A stretch of 64,000 nucleotides of DNA from Humitalea rosea (GTDB lineage: Bacteria > Pseudomonadota > Alphaproteobacteria > Acetobacterales > Acetobacteraceae), in the NCBI RefSeq assembly GCF_003253705.1, contig NZ_QKYU01000023.1, positions 1-64,000 of the forward strand. Direction: 5' to 3'. The notes under the pieces are model-generated. The model saw nothing but the letters and a program-made list of their open reading frames with translations. It did no database searches and was not told the origin of the DNA. Both the position numbers and the translations under genes were made by a program. Shown in pieces: positions 4,028 to 48,221 of this stretch. Positions within the stretch are counted from its first letter, which is position 1. Every line of letters begins with the position of its first letter.

Positions 4028-5299
4028 GTGTGGACCAAGCTTCATCTGGCACGGGCCTCCTGGACGTTGATCGACCAGGGGATCGTCAGCGCCGGCACCT
4101 TCGTCATCAACGTGATCCTGGCGCGATGGCTGTCCCAGCCGGATTACGGGACCTTCGCGCTGGTGTTCAGCGGCATCTTCACCTTGCAGCTGTTCACCAA
4201 TTCGCTGTTGTTCCATCCGCTTCAGGTCAGGCTCGTCATCACCAGGCCGGAAGATCAGGCACGGCTGCTGAGCGCCAGCCTGATCCTGCTCACCATCCTC
4301 TCGCTCGGGCTTGGCGCGGTGCTGTTCGTCAGCCTGTTCTGGATCGGCCGCAGCGACCTTCTGCTGCCCGCGATGATCTGTTTCCTGCTCGGCCAGATCC
4401 AGGAAGCGCTGCGGCGGGGCCTGCATGCGACCTTCCGGCACCGGGCGGCGGTGCTGGGCGACAGCATCAGCGTGGGTGGCAGGACTCTCCTGATCCTCGG
4501 CCTCGCCTTGGCCGATGCGCTGACGCTTGAGGATGCGCTGATCAGCATGGCCGCGGCGTCCGGGATCGCGGCATTGGTGCAGGCGTTCCAGCTCGATCTG
4601 CGGCGCCGCGGACCCTTCCGGCTGGGCACGACCCTGGCGGAGTATTGGTCCTTGGGTGGCCTTTGGTCGCTGGGCAATGCGCTGCTGTCATCGCTGCGCC
4701 TGCAGATCCCGCTCTGGGCCTTGGCGATCGGCGCGGGCTCGGCCGCGGCTGCCTCGTTTCAGGCGGCGATGAATGTGGCGAACCTGTGCAATCCGATCAT
4801 CGTGGGCCTTGCGAATATCATTCCGCAGACGGCGGCGCAGGCCAGGGTGAAGGGCAACGCCCATGCCTGGCGGGCCACGCGGGTCTATGTGGTGCTCACC
4901 ATCCTGCCGCTCGCGCTGTATTCCGGCGCGGTGCTTGTCGCCCCCGAACTGAGCCTGCGGCTGCTGTACGGTGCGCAGTCCGAGTATCTGGGCCTGACCG
5001 AGGCGGTGCGGCTGCTGGTCATCGCGGGCCTCGCGGCGACACTGACCGAAGTCGTGATCGCCTTCCTGCATGGCATCGGCGAGGTGCCATCGGCGCTCGC
5101 GATCAATGCCATTGGTACAGTGGCGACGCTGGTGCTCGCCGTGGTGCTGATCGCCGATCTCGGGCTGACCGGAAGCTGCCTTGCCCTCATCGGGGGGAGT
5201 GCCGCGCGGCTGGTCGCGGCGCATTACGTATTGACCCAGGCCACGGCGGAACTCGGCCGCTACGGCCGGGCCGAACCCGGCCGCGGACATTCGACATGA
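4028..5299 (+). CDS. Oligosaccharide flippase / polysaccharide export membrane protein
   Basis: Integral membrane protein of the MATE-like polysaccharide transporter (Wzx/PST) type, about 423 residues with repeated hydrophobic segments throughout, for example WTLIDQGIVSAGTFVINVILARW at the start, LILLTILSLGLGAVLFVSLF in the first half and the C-terminal LVLAVVLIADLGLTG. It would move a lipid-linked glycan or a similar amphiphile across the inner membrane. GTG 4028 is preferred because AGGAG sits at 4013-4017, ten bases upstream; ATG 4007 and 3911 are in-frame alternatives. Its stop overlaps the next gene, a GT2 glycosyltransferase (ATGA), so the two are coupled and open the glycan cluster. 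The substrate is unknown. Confidence 0.8.
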   Translation: MWTKLHLARASWTLIDQGIVSAGTFVINVILARWLSQPDYGTFALVFSGIFTLQLFTNSLLFHPLQVRLVITRPEDQARLLSASLILLTILSLGLGAVLFVSLFWIGRSDLLLPAMICFLLGQIQEALRRGLHATFRHRAAVLGDSISVGGRTLLILGLALADALTLEDALISMAAASGIAALVQAFQLDLRRRGPFRLGTTLAEYWSLGGLWSLGNALLSSLRLQIPLWALAIGAGSAAAASFQAAMNVANLCNPIIVGLANIIPQTAAQARVKGNAHAWRATRVYVVLTILPLALYSGAVLVAPELSLRLLYGAQSEYLGLTEAVRLLVIAGLAATLTEVVIAFLHGIGEVPSALAINAIGTVATLVLAVVLIADLGLTGSCLALIGGSAARLVAAHYVLTQATAELGRYGRAEPGRGHST

Positions 5300-6108
5300 T
5301 CGTGACCGTGGTGACACCGACGTTGAATGCCGTCGCCTATCTGAAGGAATGCATTGAATCCGTGCGTGGGAACGCCTCCGGCGGGATCGAGGTCGAACAC
5401 ATCATCGCCGATGGCGGCAGCACCGACGGCACGCCGGAACAGGCGGCGGCCTGCGGCGTGCGGGTGCTGAGCCGGCCAGGCAGCGGCCTGTTCGAACGGA
5501 TCAACCAAGCCTCCATGATGGCGTCGGGAGAGTTGATCGGCTACCTGGGCGCCGATGATGTGATGTTGCCCGGCGCCCTGGCCGCGGTCGTTGGCGCCTA
5601 TGCCCGCGGCAGCCGGCGCTGGGTCGTCGGCGGCATCCGCTGGATCGATGAGGAGGGGCGAAGCCTCGGCGGACTCGCGGCACCCCCGAGCTGGATCACG
5701 CCGCGCATGCATGTCAGCCTCGGCTGGAATCCGATCATGCTGATAGGGACTTACTTCTCGCGTGATTTTTTTGCGCAGCTTGGCGGATATGACGTCGATT
5801 ACCAGGTGAGCGGCGATTACGAGATGCTCGCCCGTGCCCTGTCGAGCGCACCCTACACACGGCTCGCCGTACCCGTGGCCTGCTTCCGAAGGACCGGGTT
5901 GAATCTCAGCGCGGTGCGCCATGTCCGGGGCATGCAGGAAAACCAGATGATCCTGTCGCGGTTCCGCCCGAAGTCGGAGCTGGAGCGCCAAGGCTGGCGC
6001 TATGGCATGAAGCTTTGGCTCAACCTGAGCAATCCCGAATGGCTGGCCTGCAAGCTCGCCGAACGCTGCGGCCTGCGTCCGCGCTCCCAACACGTCCTGC
6101 ATTTCTGA
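5296..6108 (+). CDS. Family 2 glycosyltransferase
   Basis: Cytoplasmic or membrane-associated glycosyltransferase with a GT-A fold, 270 residues. It begins with the typical VTVVTPTLNAVAYLKECIES strand-loop, has the nucleotide-binding IIADGGSTDGT motif around residue 45 and GYLGADDVML as the DxD-like metal site near residue 80, then a WNPIMLIGTYFSRDFF acceptor-side segment. It resembles WcaA/RfaG-neighbour GT2 enzymes that add a single sugar to a lipid-linked intermediate. The ATG overlaps the flippase stop, giving a two-gene unit. The donor is probably the nucleotide sugar made by the genes downstream, which is an inference from context. Confidence 0.85.
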   Translation: MIVTVVTPTLNAVAYLKECIESVRGNASGGIEVEHIIADGGSTDGTPEQAAACGVRVLSRPGSGLFERINQASMMASGELIGYLGADDVMLPGALAAVVGAYARGSRRWVVGGIRWIDEEGRSLGGLAAPPSWITPRMHVSLGWNPIMLIGTYFSRDFFAQLGGYDVDYQVSGDYEMLARALSSAPYTRLAVPVACFRRTGLNLSAVRHVRGMQENQMILSRFRPKSELERQGWRYGMKLWLNLSNPEWLACKLAERCGLRPRSQHVLHF

Positions 6109-6297
6109 ACGCCGACGCCCTATTGCCCGCGCGACCCCGATAGTCCCGATCGGCGCGAATGGGCTACCCCCGATGCCGAATTCATCGACGTCCCAGCCAG
6201 CGCATAATGCCCATGGGGCCGAGAGAAGAAGCAGCAACCAGTGTCCCCCGGATACACCTGCTCAACGCCGCCGGGCGTGCGATCAAGGGACATAGGA

Positions 6298-7377
6298 ATG
6301 GACAGCCACATCGCTACGGCACTACCGCGTGACGTCCACACTGCGGAGGTGCGCGGCTCGCCGGGCGCTGGCCGGCTGCGGCCCGGCGACCGCGTCACGC
6401 TGCGTCCGCCGGCGGAGATCCTGGCGGGCCTGGCGACGCGGCAGGACATGCCGTTCATGCCCGAGATGCTGCAGTTCTATGGACGGGCCTTCACCGTCGC
6501 CAAACGGGTCGAGAAGATCTGCGACACCATCTGCCCCGTTGCCAGCCGGCGCATGCAGGGCACCGTCTATCTGGAGGAGCTGCGCTGCGATGGCAGCGCG
6601 CATGGTGGATGCCAGGCCGAGTGCCGCCTCTATTGGCGGGAGGAGTGGCTGGCGCGCCTGAACCCGGACGCATCGCCGCGCAGGCCCGATGATGCGGAGG
6701 TGGCGGCCTTGCGTGCCGCAATCGAGGCCAACATCCATCCGCCCGGCGCGCCTGGCCTGTTCCGTTGCCAGGTGACCGAAGCACGCCGCGCGACGACGGC
6801 GCTTCCCGATTGGGATCTGCGGCAATACCTACGCGAGGTCACCAGCGGCAATACAACGCCCGGCCACGTGCTGCGCGTCGGCTTGCGCGCCATGCCGCAG
6901 GAACTCGTGCGGCTGGCCCGCAGCGCGACCCCGGCCGCGCTGCGCCCGATGGCCCGCGGATTGCGGGCGCGGATGCATCCCTCGGCCGCGCAACGCGAAC
7001 GGCCCGCGCCGCTGGGGCTGCAAGCGGGGGAATGGGTGGAGGTGCGTTCGGCGGCCGAGATCAGGCGGACGCTGGACGCGCGCGGCTTCAACCGCGGCCT
7101 GTCCTTCTCCGGCCCCGAGATGCTGCCCGCCTGTGGCAAACGGTTTCGTGTACGCGCGCGCGTCAACCGCATCATCGATGAGCCGACCGGGCGGATGCTC
7201 GAGATGAAGCATGACTGCATCACGCTGGAAGGGCTGGTCTGCACCGGTGACCGCTCGGCCGGCCGTTGGTTCTGTTCGCGCGAAATCTATCCGTACTGGC
7301 GCGAGGCCTGGCTGAAACGCCCGAATGACCCCGAACCCGGCCCGTCAATGACGCCGCATCCGCCATCAGCGTCATGA
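6298..7377 (+). CDS. Uncharacterised protein with a duplicated Cys-containing YWRE domain
   Basis: A 359-residue soluble protein that I do not recognise. It carries the same roughly 95-residue domain twice, at about residues 28-120 and 242-341. Both copies start with a PGDxVxxRxxxEI-like strand-helix, continue through a GRAFTVAKRV or GKRFRVRARV strand, then LEELRCDG or LEGLVCTG, a later Cys and finally YWREEWL or YWREAWL. The conserved cysteines suggest a metal site or disulfides. The linker between the copies is Arg-rich. The start ATG 6298 follows an AGGGA-like site; the frame is open from a GTG at 6241. The stop overlaps the methyltransferase start, so it belongs to the same operon. No function is claimed. 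Confidence 0.7.
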   Translation: MDSHIATALPRDVHTAEVRGSPGAGRLRPGDRVTLRPPAEILAGLATRQDMPFMPEMLQFYGRAFTVAKRVEKICDTICPVASRRMQGTVYLEELRCDGSAHGGCQAECRLYWREEWLARLNPDASPRRPDDAEVAALRAAIEANIHPPGAPGLFRCQVTEARRATTALPDWDLRQYLREVTSGNTTPGHVLRVGLRAMPQELVRLARSATPAALRPMARGLRARMHPSAAQRERPAPLGLQAGEWVEVRSAAEIRRTLDARGFNRGLSFSGPEMLPACGKRFRVRARVNRIIDEPTGRMLEMKHDCITLEGLVCTGDRSAGRWFCSREIYPYWREAWLKRPNDPEPGPSMTPHPPSAS

Positions 7378-8717
7378 AAGGATTCGACGCCATGCAAGAC
7401 TGGTCCAGCCTGCCCGGCGGGGAGGTGGCCCCTGCGGCCACGAGGCCCGCGCGAAGGCCTGCGGGAACGAGCCGTTGCCGCGCCTGCGGCGGCACGCTGC
7501 ATCCCTGGGTGGACCTCGGCATGTCGCCCTTGTGCGAAAGCTTCCTGAGCGCCGAGCAACGTGACGCCGCCGAGATATTCTATCCGCTGAAGGCGCAGGT
7601 CTGTGACACCTGCTGGCTGGCCCAGCTTGGCGAATATGTTTCGCCAGAAACCATCTTTGATGAATATGCCTACTTCTCCTCCTATTCGGAGGCATGGATG
7701 GCGCATGCCGCGGATTATGTGGGCGCGGTTGTCGCACGCTACGGGTTGGACGCGCAGAGCCAGGTCATCGAGGTCGCCAGCAATGATGGCTACCTGCTGC
7801 GCAACTTCGTGGCGCGTGGCATCCCGTGCCTCGGGATCGAGCCCGCCCGGAATGTCGCGATCGCCGCCGAGGCCGCGGGTGTTCCGACACGCGTCGCCTA
7901 CTTCGGCACGACCCTTGCGGCCAGCCTGGCCGACGAGGGCTTGCGCGCCGATCTGGTGATCGGCAACAATGTGCTGGCGCAGGTGCCGGATCTGAACGAC
8001 TTCACCGCCGGACTGCGCCATGTTCTGAAGCCAGAGGGCGTGCTGACGCTCGAATTCCCGCATCTGGCCAGGCTGATCGAGGGCAACCAGTTCGACACCA
8101 TCTATCACGAGCATTTCTCGTATTTCTCGCTCGCTTCGATCGATCATCTGTTCGCGGCGCATGGTCTGCGCGTCTTCGATGTGGAGGAGGTGTGGACGCA
8201 TGGCGGATCGTTGCGGATTTACGCGGCGCTGGAGGGCAGCGCCCATGTCGAACGTGACGCGGTCGGCAAGCTGCGGGTGCGGGAAGCGGCGGGCGGCGTG
8301 CGCGATCTCGCGAGCTACGCGGCCTTCGCGCGACGGGTCGAGGAGACCAAGGACGCGCTGCTGACCCTGCTGATCGGCTTGAAGCGCCAGGGCGCCCGGG
8401 TGGCGGGGTATGGCGCGCCCGGCAAGGGCAACACGCTTCTCAACTACTGCGGCATACGCGGCGATCTTCTGGCTTTCACCGTCGATCGCAACCCCTACAA
8501 ATGGGGCCGGTTCCTCCCGGGGACGCACATCCCGGTGCTGCCGCCCACGGCCATCCAGGAAGAGCGGCCGGATTACGTGCTGATCCTGCCGTGGAACCTG
8601 AAGGATGAGATCGCGCGGCAACTCGCCCCGATCCGTGAGTGGGGGGGGCAACTCATCGTGCCGATTCCCCACCCGGAGATTCTCCCTTGGCCTGTCGATA
8701 AGGAAGCGATGCTATGA
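7374..8717 (+). CDS. SAM-dependent sugar C-methyltransferase (TylC3/NovU-like)
   Basis: Three-part methyltransferase of 447 residues matching the NDP-hexose C-methyltransferase architecture. An N-terminal zinc-binding module has Cys35/Cys38 (CRACGG) and Cys77/Cys80 (CDTCW), followed by a class I SAM-binding domain with VIEVASNDGYLL at about residues 131-142, and a C-terminal substrate domain containing VAGYGAPGKGNTLLNYCG. Family members methylate C-3 (or a similar carbon) of a 4-keto sugar nucleotide. The start overlaps the preceding stop (ATGA) and the end overlaps the cytidylyltransferase start, so all are coupled. The product is likely a branched-chain sugar; the precise position cannot be read from the sequence. 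Confidence 0.85.
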   Translation: MKGFDAMQDWSSLPGGEVAPAATRPARRPAGTSRCRACGGTLHPWVDLGMSPLCESFLSAEQRDAAEIFYPLKAQVCDTCWLAQLGEYVSPETIFDEYAYFSSYSEAWMAHAADYVGAVVARYGLDAQSQVIEVASNDGYLLRNFVARGIPCLGIEPARNVAIAAEAAGVPTRVAYFGTTLAASLADEGLRADLVIGNNVLAQVPDLNDFTAGLRHVLKPEGVLTLEFPHLARLIEGNQFDTIYHEHFSYFSLASIDHLFAAHGLRVFDVEEVWTHGGSLRIYAALEGSAHVERDAVGKLRVREAAGGVRDLASYAAFARRVEETKDALLTLLIGLKRQGARVAGYGAPGKGNTLLNYCGIRGDLLAFTVDRNPYKWGRFLPGTHIPVLPPTAIQEERPDYVLILPWNLKDEIARQLAPIREWGGQLIVPIPHPEILPWPVDKEAML

Positions 8718-9553
8718 AGGTGGTGCTGTTCTGCGGGGGCCAGGGCCTGCGCATGCGCTCGGACAGCAACGGCAATGACCTGCCCAAGCCGATGGTGCCA
8801 CTCGGTCCACGCCCCATTCTTTGGCACCTGATGAAGTACTACGCGCACTTTGGTCATAAGGATTTTATCCTTTGCCTCGGCTACAAGGGCGCGACCATCA
8901 AAGAGTTCTTCGCGAACTATCAGGAATGGATCTCCAATGACTTCGTCCTGGAGGGGGGAGGTCGCCGGCTCGACCTATTGAAGAGTGATATCGATGACTG
9001 GCGCATCACCCTTGTGGATACCGGCATCGAGTCCAACATCGGCGAGCGGCTGATGGCGGTGCGGCGCTTCCTTCAGGACGAGGAGATGTTCCTCGCCAAC
9101 TACAGCGATGGCCTGTCCGATTGCCCGGTGCAGCCCGTCATCGACCGTCTGATCCAGACGGATGCCGTGGCGGCCTGCATGGTGGCGCGGCCGAACATCT
9201 CGGTGCATCTCGTCGAACATGCCTCCGATGGGCTGGTGCATGCCGTGCTCGATGCGGAGGAGGCGAACATGTGGATCAACGCCGGCTTCTTCGCCTTTCG
9301 TCGTGAGATCTTCGACTACATCCGCCCTGGTGAGGAACTCGTCCTTGAACCGTTCAGGCGGTTGATCGCAACGGGCAAGCTTGCGGCCTACCCGTACAGT
9401 GGATTCTGGCGTTGCTGCGATACCTTCAAGGATCTGCAGAACCTCGCGGCACTGGCGGCCTGCGGTCCGGCGCCCTGGGAGGTCTGGCGGCATCCTGTCC
9501 TGCGCCCGCCGCCGATGGAGGTCTTCACCTTCGACCATGCGGCAGCCAAATAA
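8714..9553 (+). CDS. Glucose-1-phosphate cytidylyltransferase-like nucleotidyltransferase
   Basis: Nucleotidyltransferase of 279 residues similar to RfbF, which makes CDP-glucose from glucose 1-phosphate and CTP. The N-terminal nucleotide loop is CGGQGLRMR, followed by the LPKPMVPLGPRPILWHLMKYYAHFG block with the catalytic Lys, and GYKGATIKEFF, all typical of the RfbF type rather than RfbA. Asp residues in FLANYSDGLSD fit the metal site. It overlaps both neighbours by a few bases. No obvious CDP-glucose 4,6-dehydratase (RfbG) gene lies in the window, so either the dehydratase is elsewhere or the activated sugar is not glucose. Confidence 0.82.
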   Translation: MKVVLFCGGQGLRMRSDSNGNDLPKPMVPLGPRPILWHLMKYYAHFGHKDFILCLGYKGATIKEFFANYQEWISNDFVLEGGGRRLDLLKSDIDDWRITLVDTGIESNIGERLMAVRRFLQDEEMFLANYSDGLSDCPVQPVIDRLIQTDAVAACMVARPNISVHLVEHASDGLVHAVLDAEEANMWINAGFFAFRREIFDYIRPGEELVLEPFRRLIATGKLAAYPYSGFWRCCDTFKDLQNLAALAACGPAPWEVWRHPVLRPPPMEVFTFDHAAAK

Positions 9554-10209
9554 TGTTGCGATTGACGTTTAATCTACCTCCCGGCCAGCCGTTGAACATC
9601 CTGTGCATCGGCGCCCATTCCGATGACATCGAGATCGGGGCGGGCGGCACGATCCTGGCGCTGCTGGCACAGCCGCGGCCGGTGCGGGTGCATTGGATCG
9701 TATTTTCCGCCTCCCCCCAACGAGCGCAGGAGGCGCGGGCGAGCGCCGCGGAATTCCTGACCGGTGCGGATGCCGCGCTGATCGAGGTCGAGGATATGCG
9801 CGACGGATTCTTCCCCGCGGAATTCCTCCGCGTGAAGGAAAGGTTCGAGGTGCTGAAACAGGCGTCGCGTCCCGACCTGATCCTGACCCATACGCGCGAC
9901 GATCATCATCAGGACCACCGTTGCCTGGCTGAACTGACCTGGAATACCTTCCGGAAGCACCTCATCCTGGGCTACGAGATCCCCAAATACGACCCGGATC
10001 TCGGCAATCCCAACCTGTTCATGCCGCTTTCCAGCGAGGTCGCGGAACGGAAGGTTGCCGCCCTCATGCGGCATTTCAAAACCCAGCATGCGCGGGGCTG
10101 GTTCACCCCGGAGACGTTCCACGCCCTGATGCGATTGCGTGGCCTACAGGCGGCGGCGCAATCCGGGATGGCGGAGGCGTTCCATGGTCCGAAGCTTTGG
10201 CTGTGTTGA
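9553..10209 (+). CDS. PIG-L family deacetylase
   Basis: Zinc-dependent N-deacetylase of the PIG-L/LmbE fold, 218 residues. The metal motif AHSDDIE (His22, Asp24, Asp25) and the second motif with clustered histidines (THTRDDHHQDHR) are intact. Enzymes of this family remove an acetyl group from GlcNAc-type sugars or related small molecules. ATG 9553 shares an A with the TAA stop of the cytidylyltransferase, so translation is coupled. Its place in the cluster suggests that an N-acetylated sugar intermediate is deacetylated before or after methylation. Membership is sure; the substrate is inferred only in outline. Confidence 0.85.
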   Translation: MLRLTFNLPPGQPLNILCIGAHSDDIEIGAGGTILALLAQPRPVRVHWIVFSASPQRAQEARASAAEFLTGADAALIEVEDMRDGFFPAEFLRVKERFEVLKQASRPDLILTHTRDDHHQDHRCLAELTWNTFRKHLILGYEIPKYDPDLGNPNLFMPLSSEVAERKVAALMRHFKTQHARGWFTPETFHALMRLRGLQAAAQSGMAEAFHGPKLWLC

Positions 10210-10217
10210 CCCCGCCA

Positions 10218-10763
10218 TCACCCCACCGCACCCGGCGGCCTGAACGGCGGCCAGCTCCGGTCCTTGTCCGATATCACAGTGACCGGGCGCGGCCAGGTGA
10301 TGCCGAGGGCGGGATCGTCGTGGCGAAGGCCATCAGCGAAACCGGGGGCATAGGCGGTGTCCATCTGGTAGAGCACCTCGCAATCATCGACGAGCGTCTG
10401 AAAGCCATGCGCGCATCCCTTCGGGATGTAGAGCGCAAGATCGCCATCCTGACGCAGTTCGAACGCCTGCCATCGGCCCTTGGTCGGGCTGTCGGGGCGC
10501 AGGTCGGCGATGACATCATGGATGGCGCCGCGCACGCAGCGCACGAGCTTTGCCTCGGCATGCGGCGCACGTTGAAAATGCATGCCCCGCAGCGTGCCCG
10601 CCGTGGTGGAGACCGAAAGGCTCGCCTGAACGAAATCCCCCGCAAGGCCCTGCGCGGCGAAGGTCTCGCGGCAGAAGAGGCGGGCGAAGGCGCCACGGGC
10701 ATCGCCATGCCAGTCCAGGCGGAGTCCGAAGAGCCCATCTATCTCCGTCGATTCGAAGCGCAT
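10218..10763 (-). CDS. dTDP-4-dehydrorhamnose 3,5-epimerase-like protein (RmlC family)
   Basis: Cupin-fold sugar-nucleotide epimerase, 181 residues, the normal RmlC length. The catalytic base His62 sits in LRGMHFQ, Tyr132 and Tyr138 in the LYQMDTAY segment, and the conserved Asp before GITWP near the C-terminus is present. The usual NHSRS-type motif is changed to ASLSVS, so substrate handling may differ from true RmlC. It is the only gene of the cluster on the minus strand, convergent with the deacetylase (8 bases apart) and divergent from the DUF4910 gene (37 bases apart). Epimerisation at C-3, C-5 or both of a 4-keto sugar nucleotide is the expected role. Confidence 0.82.
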   Translation of the reverse strand: MRFESTEIDGLFGLRLDWHGDARGAFARLFCRETFAAQGLAGDFVQASLSVSTTAGTLRGMHFQRAPHAEAKLVRCVRGAIHDVIADLRPDSPTKGRWQAFELRQDGDLALYIPKGCAHGFQTLVDDCEVLYQMDTAYAPGFADGLRHDDPALGITWPRPVTVISDKDRSWPPFRPPGAVG

Positions 10764-10800
10764 CCGCGCGACCTCCCGCCTTCACCGCAATGGGGGCAGC

Positions 10801-12171
10801 ATGTCGGATCCCGGTGAAGAACTCCACGCGCATGTGCGGGCGCTGTTCCCGCTGTGCCGCAGCATCACGGGCGCGGGCTTGCGTGACACGCTCGGCTATA
10901 TCGCCCGCCATATCCCGCTGACCGTGACCGAGGTGCCGAGCGGCACCGCGGTATTGGACTGGGTGGTGCCGCCCGAGTGGACCGTGCGCGGCGCCTCGAT
11001 TTTGGCGATGGATGGATCCACGATCATCGATTTCGACCGTCACACTCTTCATCTGCTGAACTACAGCGCGCCCTTCGAGGGGGAGGTCTCGCGCCTGGAC
11101 CTTGAGGCGCATTTGCACAGCCTTCCGGCGCAGCCCGACCTCATCCCCTACGTCACCTCCTACTATCGCCGGGATTGGGGATTCTGCCTCGCGCATCGCG
11201 ATCGCCTGGCACTGGGGGATGCGCGATACCGCGTCCGGATCGACACGGAACTCGCTCCTGGGAGCCTGAGTTACGGCGAATGTGTGCTGCCCGGCGAGGA
11301 GGAGGGCGAGGTGCTGATTTCCGCTCATAGCTGCCATCCCTCGCTGGCCAATGACAACCTCTCATCCATCGCCGTGGCGATCGATCTGGCACGGATCCTG
11401 AGCGCGCGGCGACGGCGCTTCACATGGCGCTTCCTCTTCGCGCCAGGCACCATCGGTGCGATCTGCTGGCTTGCCGCCAACCGTGACGCGGCGGCCCGCA
11501 TCCGCCACGGCCTGGTGCTGACCTGCCTCGGTGATCCGGCGCCTCCAAGCTACAAGCGCAGCCGCCGACAGGATGCACCGATCGACCGCTATGTTGAGCA
11601 TGTGTTGCGGGATGAAGGCTTTGGCGAGCGCATCCTGCCGTTCACCCCCACCGGCTATGATGAGCGCCAATTCTGTTCGCCGGGCTTCGACTTGCCGATG
11701 GGGTGTCTGATGCGATCCCCGGGGGGCAGTTTCCCGGAGTATCACACCTCGGCCGATACCCCCGATTTCGTTCGACCCGCGGCTCTGGCGGATTCGCTGC
11801 GTGTGCTCGACCGCATCGCGACGCTGATCGAGCGGGACGGTATCTTCGCAAGCAAGGCGCCTTATGGCGAACCGCAACTTGGCCGCCGTGGGCTGTATGA
11901 CGGTGCGGCCACAGCGGCGTCGCGGCTGGCGTTGCTGTGGTCCCTCAACCTGGCCGATGGGCGGCATTCGCTGCTGGATGTGGCACAGCGATCGGGGCTG
12001 GCGTTTGCCGAGGTGGCGGATGCGACGGAGCGGCTGGTGGCAGCGGGGCTCGTTGTCCAGGGCTCAGGAACATGCGTGCCGGACGCAGGGTCATCCCTGT
12101 CACACCCATCATCATCGCGCTCTGCCGCGCGCCACCATCAGGAAAGGACCGTTCCGTGCGCATTCTCGTGA
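10801..12171 (+). CDS. DUF4910/DUF2172 aminopeptidase-like protein
   Basis: A 456-residue protein of the DUF4910 type: an M28-like zinc aminopeptidase fold with an inserted DUF2172-type segment and a C-terminal winged helix. The sequence starts with a helix ending in LFPLCRSITGAGLRDTL, the presumed zinc-site motif HSCHPSLANDNLS lies at about residues 176-188, and later GYDERQFCSPGF and PEYHTSADTPDF supply further ligands. The last 100 residues form the winged helix. Homologues repeatedly occur in nucleotide-sugar and glycan clusters, though their function is not established. The last residues (Ser/Arg-rich) overlap the next gene by 16 bases. Confidence 0.8.
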   Translation: MSDPGEELHAHVRALFPLCRSITGAGLRDTLGYIARHIPLTVTEVPSGTAVLDWVVPPEWTVRGASILAMDGSTIIDFDRHTLHLLNYSAPFEGEVSRLDLEAHLHSLPAQPDLIPYVTSYYRRDWGFCLAHRDRLALGDARYRVRIDTELAPGSLSYGECVLPGEEEGEVLISAHSCHPSLANDNLSSIAVAIDLARILSARRRRFTWRFLFAPGTIGAICWLAANRDAAARIRHGLVLTCLGDPAPPSYKRSRRQDAPIDRYVEHVLRDEGFGERILPFTPTGYDERQFCSPGFDLPMGCLMRSPGGSFPEYHTSADTPDFVRPAALADSLRVLDRIATLIERDGIFASKAPYGEPQLGRRGLYDGAATAASRLALLWSLNLADGRHSLLDVAQRSGLAFAEVADATERLVAAGLVVQGSGTCVPDAGSSLSHPSSSRSAARHHQERTVPCAFS

Positions 12172-13202
12172 CTGGCAGCATGGGTTATGTCGGACCCGGC
12201 GTGGTGGCGCATCTGCGCGCCCGCTTCCCGGAGGCCGAGCTGATCGGGCTTGATTCCGGCCTGTTCGCGACCTGCCTGACGACGCCGGGCCGGGCGCCCG
12301 AGACGCGCCTGGACGCACAGCGCTTCGGCGATGTGCGTGATGTGACCGTGGAAGATCTGCGCGAATGCGACGTGGTGATCCATCTCGCCGCCCTTTCGAA
12401 CGATCCCATCGGCACGCGGTTCGAGGAGGTGACCGACGCCGTGAACCGCGCGGCCAGCCTGCATCTGGCAGCCTGCGCGCGTGAGGCCGGCGTCGGGCAC
12501 TTCGTCTTTGCGTCGAGTTGCAGCGTCTATGGCTTCGCCGATGCGCAGGCGCGGCGCGAGACGGATGCGACGGCGCCGCTGACCGCCTATGCCCGCTCCA
12601 AGATCGGCACGGAGGAAGGTCTGCGGCAGATGGACCTCAACGGCATGACCGTGACCTGCCTGCGCTTCGCCACGGCATGCGGTTACAGCGAACGTTTGCG
12701 GCTGGATCTGGTGCTGAATGATTTCGTTGCCTGTGCCCTGGCCTCGGGACGCATCACGGTGCTGAGCGACGGGACGCCCTGGCGCCCGCTGATCGACGTG
12801 CGCGACATGGCGCGCGCCATTGAATGGGCGGCGACCCGCGACCCGGCGCGCGGCGGGCGCATGCTGGTGGTGAATGCGGGCTCGGACGAGCGCAACCACC
12901 AGGTGCGCGACCTCGCCGTGGCCGTGGCGCAGGCCGTGCCCGGGACGACCACGGAGATCAACACCGCGGCCCCCTTCGATCCGCGCTCCTACCGCGTGGA
13001 TTTTGGCCTGTTCCGCGCATTGGCGCCGGAGCACCAACCGCGCTGCGACCTTGGCGAGTCCATTGCCGGCCTCGTCACGGGGCTGCGCGGCATTGGCTTC
13101 GACGACGCCGCGTTTCGCGGCTCGGCCAAGATGATTCGCCTCAACATGGTGTCGGCGCTGCTGGCCGAACAGCGCCTCGGGCCAGACCTGCGCTGGACCT
13201 AG
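12156..13202 (+). CDS. NAD-dependent epimerase/dehydratase
   Basis: Extended short-chain dehydrogenase of 348 residues acting on a nucleotide sugar. The Rossmann motif TGSMGYVG lies at residues 6-13, the catalytic SSCSVYG segment around residue 120 and the YARSK pair (Tyr-xxx-Lys) around residue 145; a DVRDMARAI segment is typical of the family. The start is GTG 12156, seven bases after GGAAAGGA at 12141-12148; the frame upstream is only a shadow of the preceding gene. It closes the glycan cluster. Epimerase, dehydratase or reductase activity cannot be separated from sequence alone. A further 100 bases separate it from the convergent kinase gene. Confidence 0.85.
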   Translation: MRILVTGSMGYVGPGVVAHLRARFPEAELIGLDSGLFATCLTTPGRAPETRLDAQRFGDVRDVTVEDLRECDVVIHLAALSNDPIGTRFEEVTDAVNRAASLHLAACAREAGVGHFVFASSCSVYGFADAQARRETDATAPLTAYARSKIGTEEGLRQMDLNGMTVTCLRFATACGYSERLRLDLVLNDFVACALASGRITVLSDGTPWRPLIDVRDMARAIEWAATRDPARGGRMLVVNAGSDERNHQVRDLAVAVAQAVPGTTTEINTAAPFDPRSYRVDFGLFRALAPEHQPRCDLGESIAGLVTGLRGIGFDDAAFRGSAKMIRLNMVSALLAEQRLGPDLRWT

Positions 13203-31886: not shown

Positions 31887-32126
31887 ATGAAGGTGCGGGT
31901 GACCGTCATGCCCAAGACGGGCGTGCTGGACCCGCAGGGCAAGGCCATCTCCCACGCGCTCGGCGAACTCGGGTTCTCCGGGGTGGGGGAGGTGCTGACC
32001 GGCAAGGTGATCGAGCTGGACCTGGCCGAGACCGACCCCGAGGCCGCGCGCAGTGCCGCCGAGGCGATGGCGCGCCGGCTGCTGGCCAATACCGTCATCG
32101 AGGCCTTCCGCGTCGAACTGGTCTGA
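31887..32126 (+). CDS. purS: Phosphoribosylformylglycinamidine synthase subunit PurS
   Basis: Small subunit of FGAM synthase, 79 residues, that bridges PurQ and PurL. MKVRVTVMPKTGVLDPQGKAI and GEVLTGKVIELDLAETD are typical, as is VIEAFRVEL at the C-terminus. ATG 31887 is the natural start; a GTG nine bases earlier is also in frame. It lies between purC and purQ with a small membrane-protein gene inserted before purQ. Confidence 0.93.
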   Translation: MKVRVTVMPKTGVLDPQGKAISHALGELGFSGVGEVLTGKVIELDLAETDPEAARSAAEAMARRLLANTVIEAFRVELV

Positions 32127-32129
32127 GGC

Positions 32130-32363
32130 GTGATCAAGACCTCCGTTCTTGTCATGCTGGTGCTGACGGTCCTGATCTCGACCGGGCTGCGCTGGCGGGA
32201 CGAACGGATGGCGCGCATGGCGCCGCGCCGGCCGGCGCGGCTCGGCCTGGTGGCCGGGGTGAAGGCCAAGGCCAATCGCTGGGTGACGGCGGCGGCGCTG
32301 GCCGTCATCCTGACCCTGGCCATCCTGGGCGGGCTGCACTGGATCAATGTCTGGGCCGAGTGA
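32130..32363 (+). CDS. Small predicted membrane protein between purS and purQ
   Basis: A 77-residue peptide beginning at GTG 32130, three bases after the purS stop, with GAGG overlapping that stop. It shows two hydrophobic segments, IKTSVLVMLVLTVLIST at the N-terminus and VTAAALAVILTLAILGGLHW near the end, separated by a basic Arg-rich stretch (RWRDERMARMAPRRPAR). I do not recognise a family. The tight spacing in a purine operon and the membrane-like composition support a real gene, but an unusual shadow cannot be fully excluded. Confidence 0.55.
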   Translation: MIKTSVLVMLVLTVLISTGLRWRDERMARMAPRRPARLGLVAGVKAKANRWVTAAALAVILTLAILGGLHWINVWAE

Positions 32364-32411
32364 GCGCCCTTTCTTTTCTCGGGCCCTTCTTTTTTCGGGA
32401 ATGCACCGCGC

Positions 32412-33086
32412 ATGAACGCCGCCATCATCGTCTTCCCCGGCACCAATCGCGAACGCGACATGGCGCTGGCCCTGACCCGCGTGACGGGGCGCAAGCCCGC
32501 CATGGTCTTCCACCGCGAGACGGCGCTGCCGGCGGGGACGGATCTGGTGGTGCTGCCGGGCGGCTTCAGCCATGGCGACTATTTGCGCTGCGGCGCGATG
32601 GCCGCGCTCTCCCCCATCATGGCCGCGGTGCGGGAATTCGCGATGGGCGGCGGGCATGTGCTGGGCGTGTGCAACGGCTTCCAGATCCTGTGCGAGGCCG
32701 GGCTGCTGCCGGGGGTGCTGCTGCGCAATGCCGGGCTGCGCTTCCTCTCCATGGACTGCGTGCTGCGGGTGGAACGGGCGGGGACCGCCTTCACCAGCCA
32801 TTGGCAGAAGGGCGCGACCTTCCGCGCGCCGATGGCGCATGGGGATGGGAACTACTTTGCGGATGAGGCGACGCTGGACCGGCTGGAAGGCGAGGGGCTG
32901 GTCGCTTTTCGGTACGCCGACGCCAATCGGAATGGGGCCGCCCGCGACATCGCCGGCATCCTGTCGCCGAACCTGCGGGTGCTGGGGCTGATGCCGCATC
33001 CGGAAGATCTGGTGGACCCGCTGATGGGCGGGGTGGATGGGTTGCCACTGTTTACGAGCATGGCGGAAGCGTTGGTGGGGGTTTGA
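32412..33086 (+). CDS. purQ: Phosphoribosylformylglycinamidine synthase subunit PurQ
   Basis: Glutaminase subunit of FGAM synthase, 224 residues. The class I amidotransferase nucleophile Cys is in [13 protein letters not shown], and the His-Glu pair is in MPHPEDL near the C-terminus. [16 protein letters not shown] is a further family motif. It would release ammonia for PurL in complex with PurS. Normally purL follows directly; here an AT-rich islet of about 900 bases with a minus-strand gene separates the two. Confidence 0.96.
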
Positions 33087-33200
33087 GGAGGGGTTAAAGA
33101 GCTGCACCTGCACCCCGGCAGGAATCTCTGAATTCGCTCCCTGCAACACCTTCGCTGAGCGGCTCCATCTCGCCTCGCGGACCCTCGAAGTGACAAAGCG

Positions 33201-33917
33201 TCATGATCGAGGTGAAAAAGCTTGCTTAGGATAGATGCGTTCCAGATTTCTTTGCATTCGACCTCGACTTAAATACTTCAGCATATGAAAATGAGTGAGT
33301 AATTCGGAAAAATCTCTAGATACCGGGGCCAGGCCATTTACAGCCATTAAAATAATCTCGTAACTTGTTAGTTGACCTCTGAACAGATTGGCATATTCTA
33401 TTCTTTCCTCGTCATTGAGTGCCGAGCTGTATTTTATTCGATTCAAAATAATATACGCAGTTCGAAAATATGGCGACAGGCGGCTTTCGTGGCGCCGCAA
33501 AATTTTAGTGCTATAGATTTCGCGAAGGGTTTCTTCTGGATTTTCCCGTAAATGTTGAAGGTCTCGATTTTCCCAGAATTTTATTTCAAGAACTGCCGCC
33601 TGAATTGCATCAATTCCATTGCTATATCTAGAAACAGAACGTGGGCTATCGGGCAGAGATGCCTGATACTCCGGTGTATGCATAAATCGTACATCTTCAC
33701 GAATTCTCTGAAAAATTGCCAGAAGCTCGAAGAATTTTCTTTCGAAATTTTCTCTATTCTGTTCGTCTTGTTGCGCTTTGATTGCTCGTCCCTGCACTAA
33801 TAAAGTCGCAAAAATTGCAGCGAAACCTAAAGCTCCAAATAAGGCGTTGAAGGCCCCAAAAGAATCCCCCCATGTACCAGCGTCTGAAATGCCACTCCCA
33901 GCAATAAACCACCCCAC
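33201..33917 (-). CDS. Putative phage abortive infection protein (putAbiC-like)
   Basis: A 238-codon open frame that resembles the putative phage abortive infection family. A membrane segment (FNALFGALGFAAIFATLLVQ) is followed by a helix ENFERKFFELLAIFQRIRED, and later RTAYIILNRI and RGQLTSYEIILMAVNGLA, all typical of these proteins. The DNA is AT-rich, unlike the surrounding purine genes, indicating transfer. The open frame begins with GTG 33917, but the same frame continues upstream through a TAG to an ATG at 34001 with a good GAGGA and a first membrane segment (see next entry). So the gene may be a nonsense-disrupted or truncated defence gene. Family assignment is moderately sure. Confidence 0.72.
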   Translation of the reverse strand: MGWFIAGSGISDAGTWGDSFGAFNALFGALGFAAIFATLLVQGRAIKAQQDEQNRENFERKFFELLAIFQRIREDVRFMHTPEYQASLPDSPRSVSRYSNGIDAIQAAVLEIKFWENRDLQHLRENPEETLREIYSTKILRRHESRLSPYFRTAYIILNRIKYSSALNDEERIEYANLFRGQLTSYEIILMAVNGLAPVSRDFSELLTHFHMLKYLSRGRMQRNLERIYPKQAFSPRS

Positions 33918-34001
33918 GGCATTTACAGAATATTTTGCCCAAGCGATCTATGACGAAACAATAACAATGAGTACAGCAACAGATGAAATAAAAAACCTCA
34001 T
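33918..34001 (-). other. In-frame upstream part of the abortive-infection gene with amber codon
   Basis: Reading the minus strand from ATG 34001 (GAGGA at 34010-34006) gives 17 residues, MRFFISSVAVLIVIVSS, then a TAG (33950-33948), then IAWAKYSVNAV running in the same frame into the open frame at 33917. The two parts together make the two-membrane-segment N-terminus usual for this family. This is best explained as one gene of 267 codons with an amber mutation (or a sequencing error), not two genes. Confidence 0.65.
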
Positions 34002-45774: not shown

Positions 45775-46228
45775 ACAGACGGCCTCTGAACAGCTGGTCG
45801 AGATCTGGACCGATGGCGGCTGCAAGCCCAATCCGGGGCCGGGCGGCTGGGCCGCGGTGCTGCGCTCGGGCACGGTGGTGAAGGAACTGTCCGGCTACCA
45901 CCCCGCCACCACCAACAACCGCATGGAACTGACCGCGGCGGCCGAGGCGCTGGAGGCGCTGAAGAAGCCCTGCCGCGTGGTGCTGCATACCGACAGCGAA
46001 TACGTCCGCAACGGCATCACCCGCTGGATCCAGGGCTGGGTGCGGAACAACTGGCGCAACGCGGCCAAGGCGCCGGTCGCCAATTACGAGATGTGGCAGC
46101 GGCTGCTGGCGGCGGCCAAGCCGCATCAGATCGAGTGGAAATGGGTGCGCGGGCACAATGGCGATGTGATGAACGAGCGGGCGGATGTGTTGGCGACGGT
46201 GGCGCGGGAGCGGGAGCGGAAGGGGTAG
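45764..46228 (+). CDS. rnhA: Ribonuclease HI
   Basis: Ribonuclease HI of 154 residues, which removes RNA from RNA-DNA hybrids. The catalytic acidic residues are seen as Asp17 in [15 protein letters not shown], Glu55 in NNRMELTAA, Asp77 in LHTDSEY and the last Asp in NERADVLA. The start is a TTG at 45764 inside the end of thrB, with no later start compatible with the core. This start is less certain than the identity. Confidence 0.93.
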
Positions 46229-46411
46229 GCTGATTTAAGGAAATTCCAGAGCTCCTTCTGGAGGACGCCGTCTCCGATGATGCCACCGGATTTGCAGATA
46301 AGCACGGATCGCCTTCACTGAACTTTGGCAGACGCCGCCAGTGGTATCCTCGACCGCACCACCTCGCGCCGCCCAAGGATCAAGCGCTCCCTAGGCAGGC
46401 GAGGTCGCTTA

Positions 46412-47683
46412 TCAGGTCCGGCTGCGGGCGAAGCGCCGTGTTGTATCGGTCTTCTGGACCCACGCCGCGGCCCAAGGCGCATGACCAATGCCACTCCTTG
46501 CATCGATCAGCTTCCGGTTCATAAGGTAGGCGAGCGCCGGGTTGAGCCTTCGCGCCGACCAGCCATATCGCTCTGCAATAGCCTCCACGGCGGCAGGAAA
46601 GGCACCATCGTTCACGAGATCAGTGGCGAGCCGGAGCGCATCGTGTGCCGGATTCCACTCTCCAAATTTTCCATCGAACCGCACGAACATCTCTTCCGTC
46701 GGGTAGTAGCTGTCCTGCCCGATGCTGGAAGACTCATTGAGAACCTCACGCAGTTCGTGCGCAGCGTCCACGACATCGTCGCGCGTGAGACCTGTAACAG
46801 CGATCAGTTCCTCAAGGGAAATCTCAGGGTCGGTAAATAGAGCTGTCTCGGACCGCTCCACAAATACCTTTGCCACGGTATTGGCGGCAGCAGAGTATTC
46901 CTCGTGCAACGGCCCCATCTTGGCTGCAGGCGGCTTGCCCAACACGGGCTTCCGCACGATACCATGGATGTCATTGATCAACTGCTGGATATCGCTGGGA
47001 GGATCATCGACTGCAGGCGACATCAACGGGCGCAGAAGTGGAGGCAACTCATCCGCCGGGAGTTTGTGGCGTAGCGGGATGAATCTTGCCTGTGCGGAAA
47101 TCCTGCGCATCAGTCCTGCATCTATCTCGTGCTTTACCCACGGCTTCATGACAGACGTTCGCGTGAGCAACACAACGAAATGTGTGCAGTCGCCTAAACC
47201 CTCGTTGATTTTCTGCGGCAGGCTGTCACCCGCGCCGATTGACCATCCAGCCCACCAAGTATCGATTCCGGCGTCCATCAGCGCTCGGGCGATGCGCTCG
47301 GCAAGCTCGCGATCCTCCCCCCCGTAGCTCAGGAAAACCTTCGGCACTAAGGGCTCCACCTCCGCCTTGCCCGATACGTCCTCCTCCTCCTCCTCCTCCC
47401 CTGCTTTGGCGAGGCGCCGCTCTACCACCGCAAGCACCGTGGGCGAGCCCTCAATGCGGACGACGATGTTCCCCTCCTCGTCGATGCTGGTGACGACGGT
47501 CGGGAACTCGCCGTTGTCCGGGTCGCGGATGGCGCCCACCGACGCCTGGACTTGCGCAGCGACCTTATCGCGTACTGCACGGAGCATGGTTTCCTCGAAG
47601 TCCTTAGGATTGAAGGGTTTGCCGTTGAATGTCAGGCCAGCCACGTCAGGCTCCACCGCAGGGTTGCTCAGGAAAGATATCAT
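46412..47683 (-). CDS. TIR domain-containing protein (candidate NADase effector)
   Basis: A 423-residue protein with a TIR domain at about residues 114-245: KVFLSYGGEDRELAERIARAL, then IDTWWAGWSIGAGDS, then CTHFVVLLTRTSVMKPWVKHEID, with Glu186 as the likely catalytic glutamate. A unique N-terminal domain (residues 1-95) ends in a strongly acidic Glu-rich linker, and the C-terminal 150 residues contain a winged-helix-like segment (LEELIAVTGLTRDDVVDAAHEL). Bacterial TIR proteins of this kind cleave NAD+ when phage is sensed. No sensor gene is adjacent, so a stand-alone or unlinked trigger is possible. Base composition is lower in GC than the flanks. Confidence 0.82.
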   Translation of the reverse strand: MISFLSNPAVEPDVAGLTFNGKPFNPKDFEETMLRAVRDKVAAQVQASVGAIRDPDNGEFPTVVTSIDEEGNIVVRIEGSPTVLAVVERRLAKAGEEEEEEDVSGKAEVEPLVPKVFLSYGGEDRELAERIARALMDAGIDTWWAGWSIGAGDSLPQKINEGLGDCTHFVVLLTRTSVMKPWVKHEIDAGLMRRISAQARFIPLRHKLPADELPPLLRPLMSPAVDDPPSDIQQLINDIHGIVRKPVLGKPPAAKMGPLHEEYSAAANTVAKVFVERSETALFTDPEISLEELIAVTGLTRDDVVDAAHELREVLNESSSIGQDSYYPTEEMFVRFDGKFGEWNPAHDALRLATDLVNDGAFPAAVEAIAERYGWSARRLNPALAYLMNRKLIDARSGIGHAPWAAAWVQKTDTTRRFARSRT

Positions 47684-47972
47684 ACCCCCCGCAGGTGCAG
47701 ATCGAAGGAGCCAAGGAGGCCACGACCGCGCGCGTGGGCCGAGCGTCCTTAAAAGGGGTCAAGAGATCGGCACTTGGCGCTAAGAATTCGGGAAGGGCAC
47801 AGCTCGGCGCTCGGATGAGAGCAAGCTCAAACGACCAATGGTAGGAGAAGATTTCCGGCCTAACTGAGTAAAAATAATCGACAGAAAAATTTTTTCTGTC
47901 GCGGTATTTTTCTGTCGCGGTATTTTTCTGTCGCGGTATTTTTCAGTTGGTAGCTGAAGGCCCGAGCTCCGC
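47684..47972. other. AT-rich intergenic region with tandem repeats
   Basis: About 290 bases between the TIR gene and a small protein gene, both on the minus strand. From about 47860 it becomes strongly AT-rich, in contrast to the chromosome, and contains a palindrome fused to three tandem 16-base repeats. Promoter elements for the TIR gene may lie closer to 47690-47800, but none is clear. Confidence 0.5.
47879..47946. repeat. Palindrome plus three 16-bp tandem repeats (iteron-like)
   Basis: CGACAGAAAAA (47879-47889) and TTTTTCTGTCG (47891-47901) form an 11-base inverted repeat with one central base. The right arm starts a tandem array in which TTTTTCTGTCGCGGTA occurs at 47891-47906, 47907-47922 and 47923-47938, followed by a partial copy (TTTTTC). 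The arrangement is like iterons or a multi-site operator. It lies upstream of the TIR gene. Confidence 0.85.
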
Positions 47973-48221
47973 TCACACCGTGATATCTACCCCGCTCCCC
48001 TGACCTGCCTGCACCTTCGCCTCCGCCTCCGCCTCCGCCTTCTCCGCTGCCGCCGTCGTGGTCTTCACCAACTGCTCGTCGCGCTGGATGGTATCCGCGG
48101 CGGCCTTGGCCTGCTCATCCGTGGCGAGTTGGGCCGTCGCGCGCTTGGCCGCCGCCCGCGCCTCCTTGGCCGCTGCCTGATCCGTGGCCAGGGTGCTGCC
48201 GGCCGATCCGATGCTGTCCAT
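47973..48221 (-). CDS. Small Ala/Glu-rich coiled-coil protein
   Basis: A soluble 82-residue protein, highly enriched in Ala, Lys, Thr and Glu, probably one continuous helix (for example AAKEARAAAKRATAQLATDEQAK). ATG 48221 follows GAGGCA, a reasonable ribosome site; the in-frame extension to 48431 lacks any protein character. No family is recognised. The C-terminal GSGVDITV is distinctive. It may be a small structural or regulatory peptide; nothing further can be supported. Confidence 0.6.
   Translation of the reverse strand: MDSIGSAGSTLATDQAAAKEARAAAKRATAQLATDEQAKAAADTIQRDEQLVKTTTAAAEKAEAEAEAKVQAGQGSGVDITV

Follow-up and report, generated by a model that had tools for sequence, protein, structure and literature searches.

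The TylC3/TcaB9/NovU pathways for antibiotic deoxysugars work on dTDP-sugars and have a dedicated dehydratase, and CDP-vinelose of Azotobacter vinelandii is a natural CDP-activated 3-C-methyl 6-deoxy sugar. A link between peptidase-like DUF4910 proteins and sugar modification has already been published. Campylobacter needs Cj1295, which contains DUF2172 and belongs to the aminopeptidase-like family PIRSF015244, for the di-O-methylglyceroyl pseudaminic acid on its flagellin (PMC3068675, PMC6321876), and the authors hypothesised amide cleavage (PMC3068675). From gene neighbourhoods and the structure 3k9t, Das et al. 2014 suggested that such proteins modify sugars (PMC4000134). The sequence-only reading of the DNA analysed here (the window, 64,000 nucleotides from Humitalea rosea) had stated that DUF4910 has no known glycan role, which these studies do not support.

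The window contains nine open reading frames at 4028-13202 (Table 1), all found where that reading had placed them. The Pfam families of GT2, the C-methyltransferase, PIG-L, RmlC, the DUF4910+DUF2172+HTH_47 protein, and the epimerase all scored above their cut-offs. The flippase fell below the cut-off in Pfam but is 40% identical to a protein near another cassette (locus L092). GT2 is a locus-specific partner, as is the flippase, which lies outside the conserved cassette described below. Overlapping stop and start codons define three coupled runs, i.e., flippase-GT2, dup-CMT-NTase-PIG-L, and DUF4910-EPI. Because RmlC is encoded on the opposite strand, between PIG-L and DUF4910, the nine genes are not the single co-transcribed block that had been supposed; RmlC is also antisense in L019, L021, L022, and S. 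fredii NGR234.

Table 1 Genes of the Humitalea rosea locus, with window coordinates and the family evidence for each.
Feature	Position	Strand	Evidence and remarks
Wzx-like flippase	4028..5299	+	Polysacc_synt 17.5 bits, under 28.2 cut-off
GT2 glycosyltransferase	5296..6108	+	PF00535 74 bits; 4-base overlap with flippase
dup, duplicated protein	6298..7377	+	No Pfam/NCBIfam match; start 6241 or 6298
CMT, TylC3/TcaB9-type sugar 3-C-methyltransferase	7374..8717	+	Methyltransf_13, _23, _14
NTase, divergent RfbF-like nucleotidyltransferase without Glu-Lys motif	8714..9553	+	TIGR02623 191 bits, 300 needed (curated cut-off)
PIG-L family N-deacetylase	9553..10209	+	PF02585 50 bits, cut-off 28.2
RmlC-like 3,5/5-epimerase	10218..10763	-	TIGR01221 158.2, cut-off 155.75; dTDP_sugar_isom Pfam
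DUF4910+DUF2172+HTH_47 protein	10801..12171	+	Pfam 335/114/78 bits, all above cut-off
EPI, extended SDR epimerase/oxidoreductase	12168..13202	+	PF01370 110 bits; start GTG 12156/12168 or ATG 12180

Comparison of gene neighbourhoods holding DUF4910, PIG-L, and RfbF-like genes revealed their co-occurrence in many genomes and across phyla. The conserved cassette consists of six genes (CMT, NTase, PIG-L, RmlC, DUF4910, and EPI), and this association recurs in Proteobacteria, Actinobacteria, Cyanobacteria, Bacteroidetes, and Acidobacteria (86 loci), with gene content, and often gene order too, kept across phyla. Some copies are plasmid-borne, including the complete set of six on pNGR234b of S. fredii NGR234. 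NTase and PIG-L occurred together in 62/62 NTase loci of the main set and were adjacent in 59, and CMT was found in all 62. In an unbiased sample of 397 genomes drawn from the host's phylum, an NTase of this type was detected in five, four of which had DUF4910 (vs 24/397 overall; Fisher P 5e-5, or 7e-4 without the window). PIG-L, RmlC, and EPI were all within 10 kb of the NTase in 5/5 copies, and three further complete cassettes were recovered. The cassettes are surrounded by genes for glycosyltransferases, pyruvyl transferase, Wzz, polysaccharide export, and autokinase. At one locus (L021) the cassette adjoins a MinD gene, and neither a glycosyltransferase nor a flippase could be recognised beside it, so a glycan product is not proven. 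We estimate at roughly 0.6 the probability that this is a horizontally mobile cassette whose product is an activated sugar with a C-methyl branch and probably nitrogen, destined for an exported glycan that the local GT2 and flippase would assemble and export.

The NTase best matched structure 1tzf (E 7e-45) and retains the nucleotide/metal residues R15, K25, and D131 in 64/64 cassette copies and D236 in 63/64. The Glu-Lys(-Pro) sugar-1-phosphate motif (E178/K179 of 1tzf) was lost in 64/64 cassette copies and kept in 8/8 canonical RfbF. Given the sub-cut-off TIGR02623 score and the lost Glu-Lys pair, the RfbF-type CDP activation that had been proposed is not supported, as regards either the sugar or the nucleotide. 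Judged from its sequence, the NTase is not an ordinary RfbF, and a widespread gene annotated as 'glucose-1-phosphate cytidylyltransferase' is flagged as probably not one. The NTase and dup, as cassette companions of DUF4910, appear to be undescribed so far; a partial literature search for the PIG-L and cytidylyltransferase pair, vinelose, and COG4310 returned no match, which is weak evidence of novelty.

The AHxDD motif and the second His/Asp/His zinc site of PIG-L were conserved in 63/63 copies. The dup protein is a true duplication, as the sequence-only reading had recognised, with halves that align at 35% identity (E 1e-25) and an invariant Cys. A PDB fold search with dup returned no match at E < 0.001 (Foldseek best E 0.025). 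The AF2 model of dup has a pLDDT of 79; its C-terminal half aligned with a Mib repeat over 70 residues (Z 8.1, rmsd 2.2), and at least one half is a candidate SH3-barrel-like fold. The dup gene tracks the NTase/PIG-L pair, being present in 3/397 phylum genomes, all three of which also carry the NTase (P 1e-6). CMT has the Methyltransf_13/23/14 architecture, with the catalytic segment YHEH kept in nearly all copies, and its best PDB match was the D-mycarose 3-C-methyltransferase 4rv9 (E 6e-90). The active-site Arg, His, Tyr, and Asp of RmlC are conserved. EPI retains YxxxK, with SCS replacing TDE in 62/63 copies, and is therefore without the TDE-type catalytic triad of NDP-sugar 4,6-dehydratases.

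The DUF4910 protein best matched 3k9t (E 9e-111). Its single-zinc ligands are conserved (both His in 87/87, Asp in 84/87), and the M28 catalytic Asp and Glu are replaced by Ser (84/87) and Pro (87/87), respectively, as in 3k9t; an M28 peptidase role was rejected on this ground. By our arithmetic, the oxonium shift from 317 to 391 associated with Cj1295 corresponds to dimethylglyceroyl in and acetyl out. We propose that the DUF4910 protein is a sugar N-deacylase or transacylase. A regular-expression search for an acyl donor near the cassettes found no FkbH motif in the 86 loci. Most DUF4910 genes of the 397-genome draw lie outside a cassette. Since some loci hold CMT and DUF4910 but no NTase or PIG-L, and one genome (G274) has NTase, PIG-L, RmlC, and EPI without CMT or DUF4910 nearby, the substrate of DUF4910 may be another molecule. 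The six genes of S. fredii NGR234 offer a genetically tractable setting for DUF4910 function, a question dating from 2010-2014.

Under the reading we favour, the NTase and PIG-L would form the front end, placing a nucleotide onto some phosphorylated compound that is not plain glucose-1-phosphate, with an N-acetyl group removed by PIG-L before or after nucleotide transfer. A 4-keto sugar would then come from EPI itself or from a dehydratase whose gene lies in another part of the genome. CMT could add the methyl branch beside the keto group, RmlC could invert C5, and EPI could reduce or epimerise the product, as their families suggest. DUF4910 might finally cleave or exchange the sugar N-acyl group, as hypothesised for Cj1295. 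The branched surface sugar of the sequence-only reading is retained as the best interpretation, consistent with co-occurrence of the genes across phyla, and its nitrogen is suggested by PIG-L and DUF4910. A more specific version is tentative at best: the NTase, having abandoned the usual sugar-1-phosphate motif, and PIG-L (with dup in some lineages) would be a new activation route for an amino sugar or another phosphate that is N-acylated, and would supply a core for C-methyl sugars whose keto group is made by EPI instead of a 4,6-dehydratase. If the keto group does arise without a 4,6-dehydratase, a standard annotation rule for deoxysugars would need revision.

A rival reading is an ordinary pathway to a CDP- or dTDP-3-C-methyl-6-deoxyhexose, with a housekeeping 4,6-dehydratase (here RmlB, on C27) acting in trans, CMT, RmlC, and EPI finishing the sugar, and the NTase being a functional RfbF in spite of its lost motif. 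Such chemistry suits CMT and RmlC; outside the locus, the host has genes for RmlB, GMD, and a FlaA1-like dehydratase, RmlB is present in 39/42 cassette genomes, and a CDP-glucose dehydratase adjoins CMT/RmlC in two loci. However, there is no 4,6-dehydratase in the block, as had been noted from the letters, and the gap is general among cassette genomes. A CDP-glucose 4,6-dehydratase was absent from 40/42 cassette genomes (present in 2/42) and from the host genome (best match 64 bits vs 278 needed), so its action in trans was rejected. RmlB was absent from three of the 42, two of which also had no PF02719 dehydratase, and G372 has no GMD and a sole RmlB-like match that is sub-cut-off with internal stops. 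Among the four families tested (RmlB, RfbG, PF02719, and GMD), none was common to all genomes examined, which excludes any of them as one shared dehydratase. The ordinary route also leaves PIG-L, DUF4910, and the motif loss unexplained. We consider it unlikely.

The separate occurrence of modules in L041, L044, L051, and G274 would fit two unrelated functions at one locus, with CMT, RmlC, and EPI making a C-methyl sugar, and NTase, PIG-L, and DUF4910 remodelling N-acyl groups on another molecule, e.g., a lipid-linked or secreted metabolite. This is doubtful, given CMT in every NTase locus of the main set and the CMT-NTase-PIG-L overlaps at stop/start codons in the window. Glycan loci readily mix genes, and surface-glycan genes with no common pathway might have gathered here by chance. 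We regard this as extremely improbable: the unbiased 397-genome draw rejects it, dup is confined to NTase genomes, and the same genes recur across phyla, often in the same order. The clustering is not chance.

Among described systems, Cj1295 of the C. jejuni flagellin glycosylation locus belongs to the same protein family as the window protein and is needed to replace a nonulosonic acid's acetamido group (PMC3068675), but its partners are pseudaminic acid genes, whereas those in the window are CMT, RmlC, NTase, and PIG-L. CA_C2195 (PDB 3k9t) is the same three-domain protein, with a published link to genes for nucleotidyltransferases, epimerases, and methylases; the example operon there is for nonulosonate, and the NTase-PIG-L pair, lost motif, dup, and dehydratase gap are not described in the accessible text (PMC4000134). 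The antibiotic pathways of TylC3/TcaB9/NovU share the CMT family and an RmlC-type epimerase with the window and, unlike it, have no PIG-L, DUF4910, or RfbF-like gene. In the heterocyst envelope polysaccharide (HEP) island of Anabaena 7120 (alr2825-alr2831; PMC4390870), the order cytidylyltransferase, epimerase, RmlC, and oxidoreductase matches that of Nostoc/Scytonema loci, which hold a related module of canonical RfbF, EPI, CMT, and RmlC in genomes where CDP-glucose dehydratase is absent; no CMT was seen in the copy from Scytonema. The HEP-type RfbF is canonical and 32-36% identical to the window NTase, the island has no PIG-L or DUF4910, and the alr2826 position is taken by an LhgO-like oxidase; the Nostoc HEP island was rejected as this cassette and represents the RfbF variant. 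In the CMT tree, RfbF-linked copies are nested among NTase-linked ones, indicating that the front ends have been exchanged.

The region between 4028 and 13202 of the window holds nine genes, as determined by ORF listing and start-site inspection. Pfam and NCBIfam matched a GT2 protein, a three-domain sugar 3-C-methyltransferase (CMT), a divergent RfbF-like nucleotidyltransferase without the Glu-Lys motif (hereafter, CDPT), PIG-L, RmlC, a DUF4910+DUF2172+HTH_47 protein and an extended SDR (EPI), and recognised the flippase only weakly. The sequence-only reading described one coupled block; its nine genes are present, but RmlC lies on the minus strand, so the region comprises three coupled runs. 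Next to the six genes from CMT to EPI (hereafter, the cassette), a 1514-aa protein reads as a CheB/CheR/kinase/response-regulator hybrid, and since its relatives (47-54% identity) occur near cassettes in Shinella (L022, L048, L096) and Neorhizobium (L191), it may regulate the locus. Elsewhere in the window, GC content falls from about 70% to 57.5% (32001-34000) and 59.9% (46001-48000), suggesting recent insertions.

The cassette is real, mobile and cross-phylum, and constitutes a predicted sugar pathway; the earlier interpretation of the locus as a whole is supported in part. Among 86 loci (80 named, six from genomes of the window's family or class), CMT was present in 75, CDPT, PIG-L and RmlC in 62 each, and EPI in 61. 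All 62 CDPT loci also contained CMT and PIG-L, the latter neighbouring CDPT in 59. Because relatives of the query are over-represented in these loci, we used an even draw of 397 genomes of the phylum, where CDPT stood apart by a clear identity gap (47% or more versus 42% or less). DUF4910 was above the cut-off in 24 genomes, CDPT in five and both in four (Fisher P = 5e-5; 7e-4 without the window). PIG-L, RmlC and EPI were found in 5/5 CDPT loci, window included, and the remaining DUF4910 genes mostly lacked the cassette. Distribution among the window's own relatives is patchy: DUF4910 occurs in 7/147 genomes, and only one of the six other loci (L011 of G002) has all six genes. Hosts include Streptomyces, Streptosporangium, Bradyrhizobium, Shinella, Nostoc, Scytonema, Acidobacteria, Fibrobacteres, Lewinella and Mariniphaga, with annotated examples in Neorhizobium and Streptomyces. 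CDPT was on plasmids in 29 records; pNGR234b of S. fredii NGR234 carries all six genes, with RmlC antisense.

A class-III aminotransferase (cluster 7, annotated glutamate-1-semialdehyde aminomutase), a possible origin of the sugar amine, adjoins the cassette in 27/86 loci; examples of this arrangement are L041, L042, L068, L152, L191 and L193. In the closest cassette relatives, L021 and L019, minD adjoins in a housekeeping context with no recognisable glycosyltransferase or flippase; L021 warns against taking a polysaccharide product for granted.

Motifs of the E178-K179 type bind sugar phosphate in this nucleotidyltransferase class. Alignment to the RfbF structure 1tzf showed this motif gone in 64/64 cassette CDPT copies and retained in 8/8 canonical RfbF copies from the same kind of loci. 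Given that R15, K25 and D131 (64/64) and D236 (63/64) are kept, CDPT is predicted to be an active nucleotidyltransferase with an acceptor other than that of RfbF. Judging from their families, CMT would C-methylate the sugar, RmlC invert C5, EPI reduce or epimerise, and PIG-L N-deacetylate; by analogy, the DUF4910 protein might cleave or exchange an N-acyl group.

The lack of a clear dehydratase, remarked on from sequence, holds: motif searches found RmlB- or RfbG-like enzymes in 4/86 loci and GMD-like ones in 5/86, and CDP-glucose 4,6-dehydratase was absent from the window's genome and from 40/42 cassette genomes. RmlB was present in 39/42 (missing from three), and PF02719 and GMD dehydratases were each missing from some cassette genomes examined. 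The window's genome encodes RmlB (contig C27), GMD (C10) and a FlaA1-like gene (C12). EPI has YxxxK, and SCS where dehydratases have TDE. The keto donor would come either from differing host enzymes or from EPI itself.

The duplicated protein is a tandem duplication (halves 35% identical, E = 1e-25) with invariant Cys. Its AF2 model has a pLDDT of 79, and a possible SH3-like barrel is seen in the C-terminal half, which superposes on a Mib repeat with Z 8.1 (rmsd 2.2 over 70 residues). It occurred in 3/397 genomes, each a CDPT carrier (P = 1e-6; 8e-5 without the window); one of the three, G274, lacks DUF4910. An accessory or metal-binding role is our guess.

Nostoc/Scytonema genomes also hold a module of canonical RfbF, LhgO-like oxidase, EPI, CMT (in 2/3 RfbF-module loci) and RmlC, matching the gene order of the heterocyst envelope polysaccharide (HEP) island alr2825-alr2831 (list in PMC4390870). 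In the CMT tree, RfbF-linked copies, HEP included, nest among CDPT-linked copies, which suggests that CDPT plus PIG-L and RfbF are interchangeable front ends on one C-methyl-sugar core. An alr2831-like oxidoreductase occurs in an HEP-like island and in the G274 cassette without DUF4910. The LhgO-like FAD oxidase of the HEP-like islands (as in L185), encoded between RfbF and EPI, could be a sugar oxidase.

Coordinates of features in the window and in compared loci
Feature	Location	Strand	Position
Duplicated protein	window:6298-7377 (start possibly 6241)	+	
1514-aa CheB/CheR/kinase/response-regulator hybrid	window:13306-17850	-	adjoining cassette
Cassette region	L021:4325-13012		beside minD
alr2831-like NAD(P) oxidoreductase	L171:5876-7273	-	beside RmlC
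alr2831-like NAD(P) oxidoreductase	L185:16612-17982		beside RmlC
LhgO-like FAD oxidase	L185:9542-10876		between RfbF and EPI

The window's DUF4910 protein matched 3k9t (E = 9e-111), the CA_C2195 structure solved by Das et al., in which Ser and Pro replace the M28 Asp and Glu (PMC4000134), and alignment showed the same replacements and zinc ligands. The view that DUF4910 proteins have no known glycan role is contradicted by a role in modified surface carbohydrate proposed from gene neighbourhoods by Das et al. (PMC4000134), and by the C. jejuni protein Cj1295, which PMC6321876 lists under DUF2172. Di-O-methylglyceroyl pseudaminic acid requires Cj1295, a member of the aminopeptidase-like family PIRSF015244, and the authors of that work hypothesised that this protein cleaves the acetamido group (PMC3068675); by our arithmetic (+116-42), the mass shift from 317 to 391 is consistent with acyl exchange. 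Cj1295 and the window's DUF4910 protein belong to the same aminopeptidase-like family.
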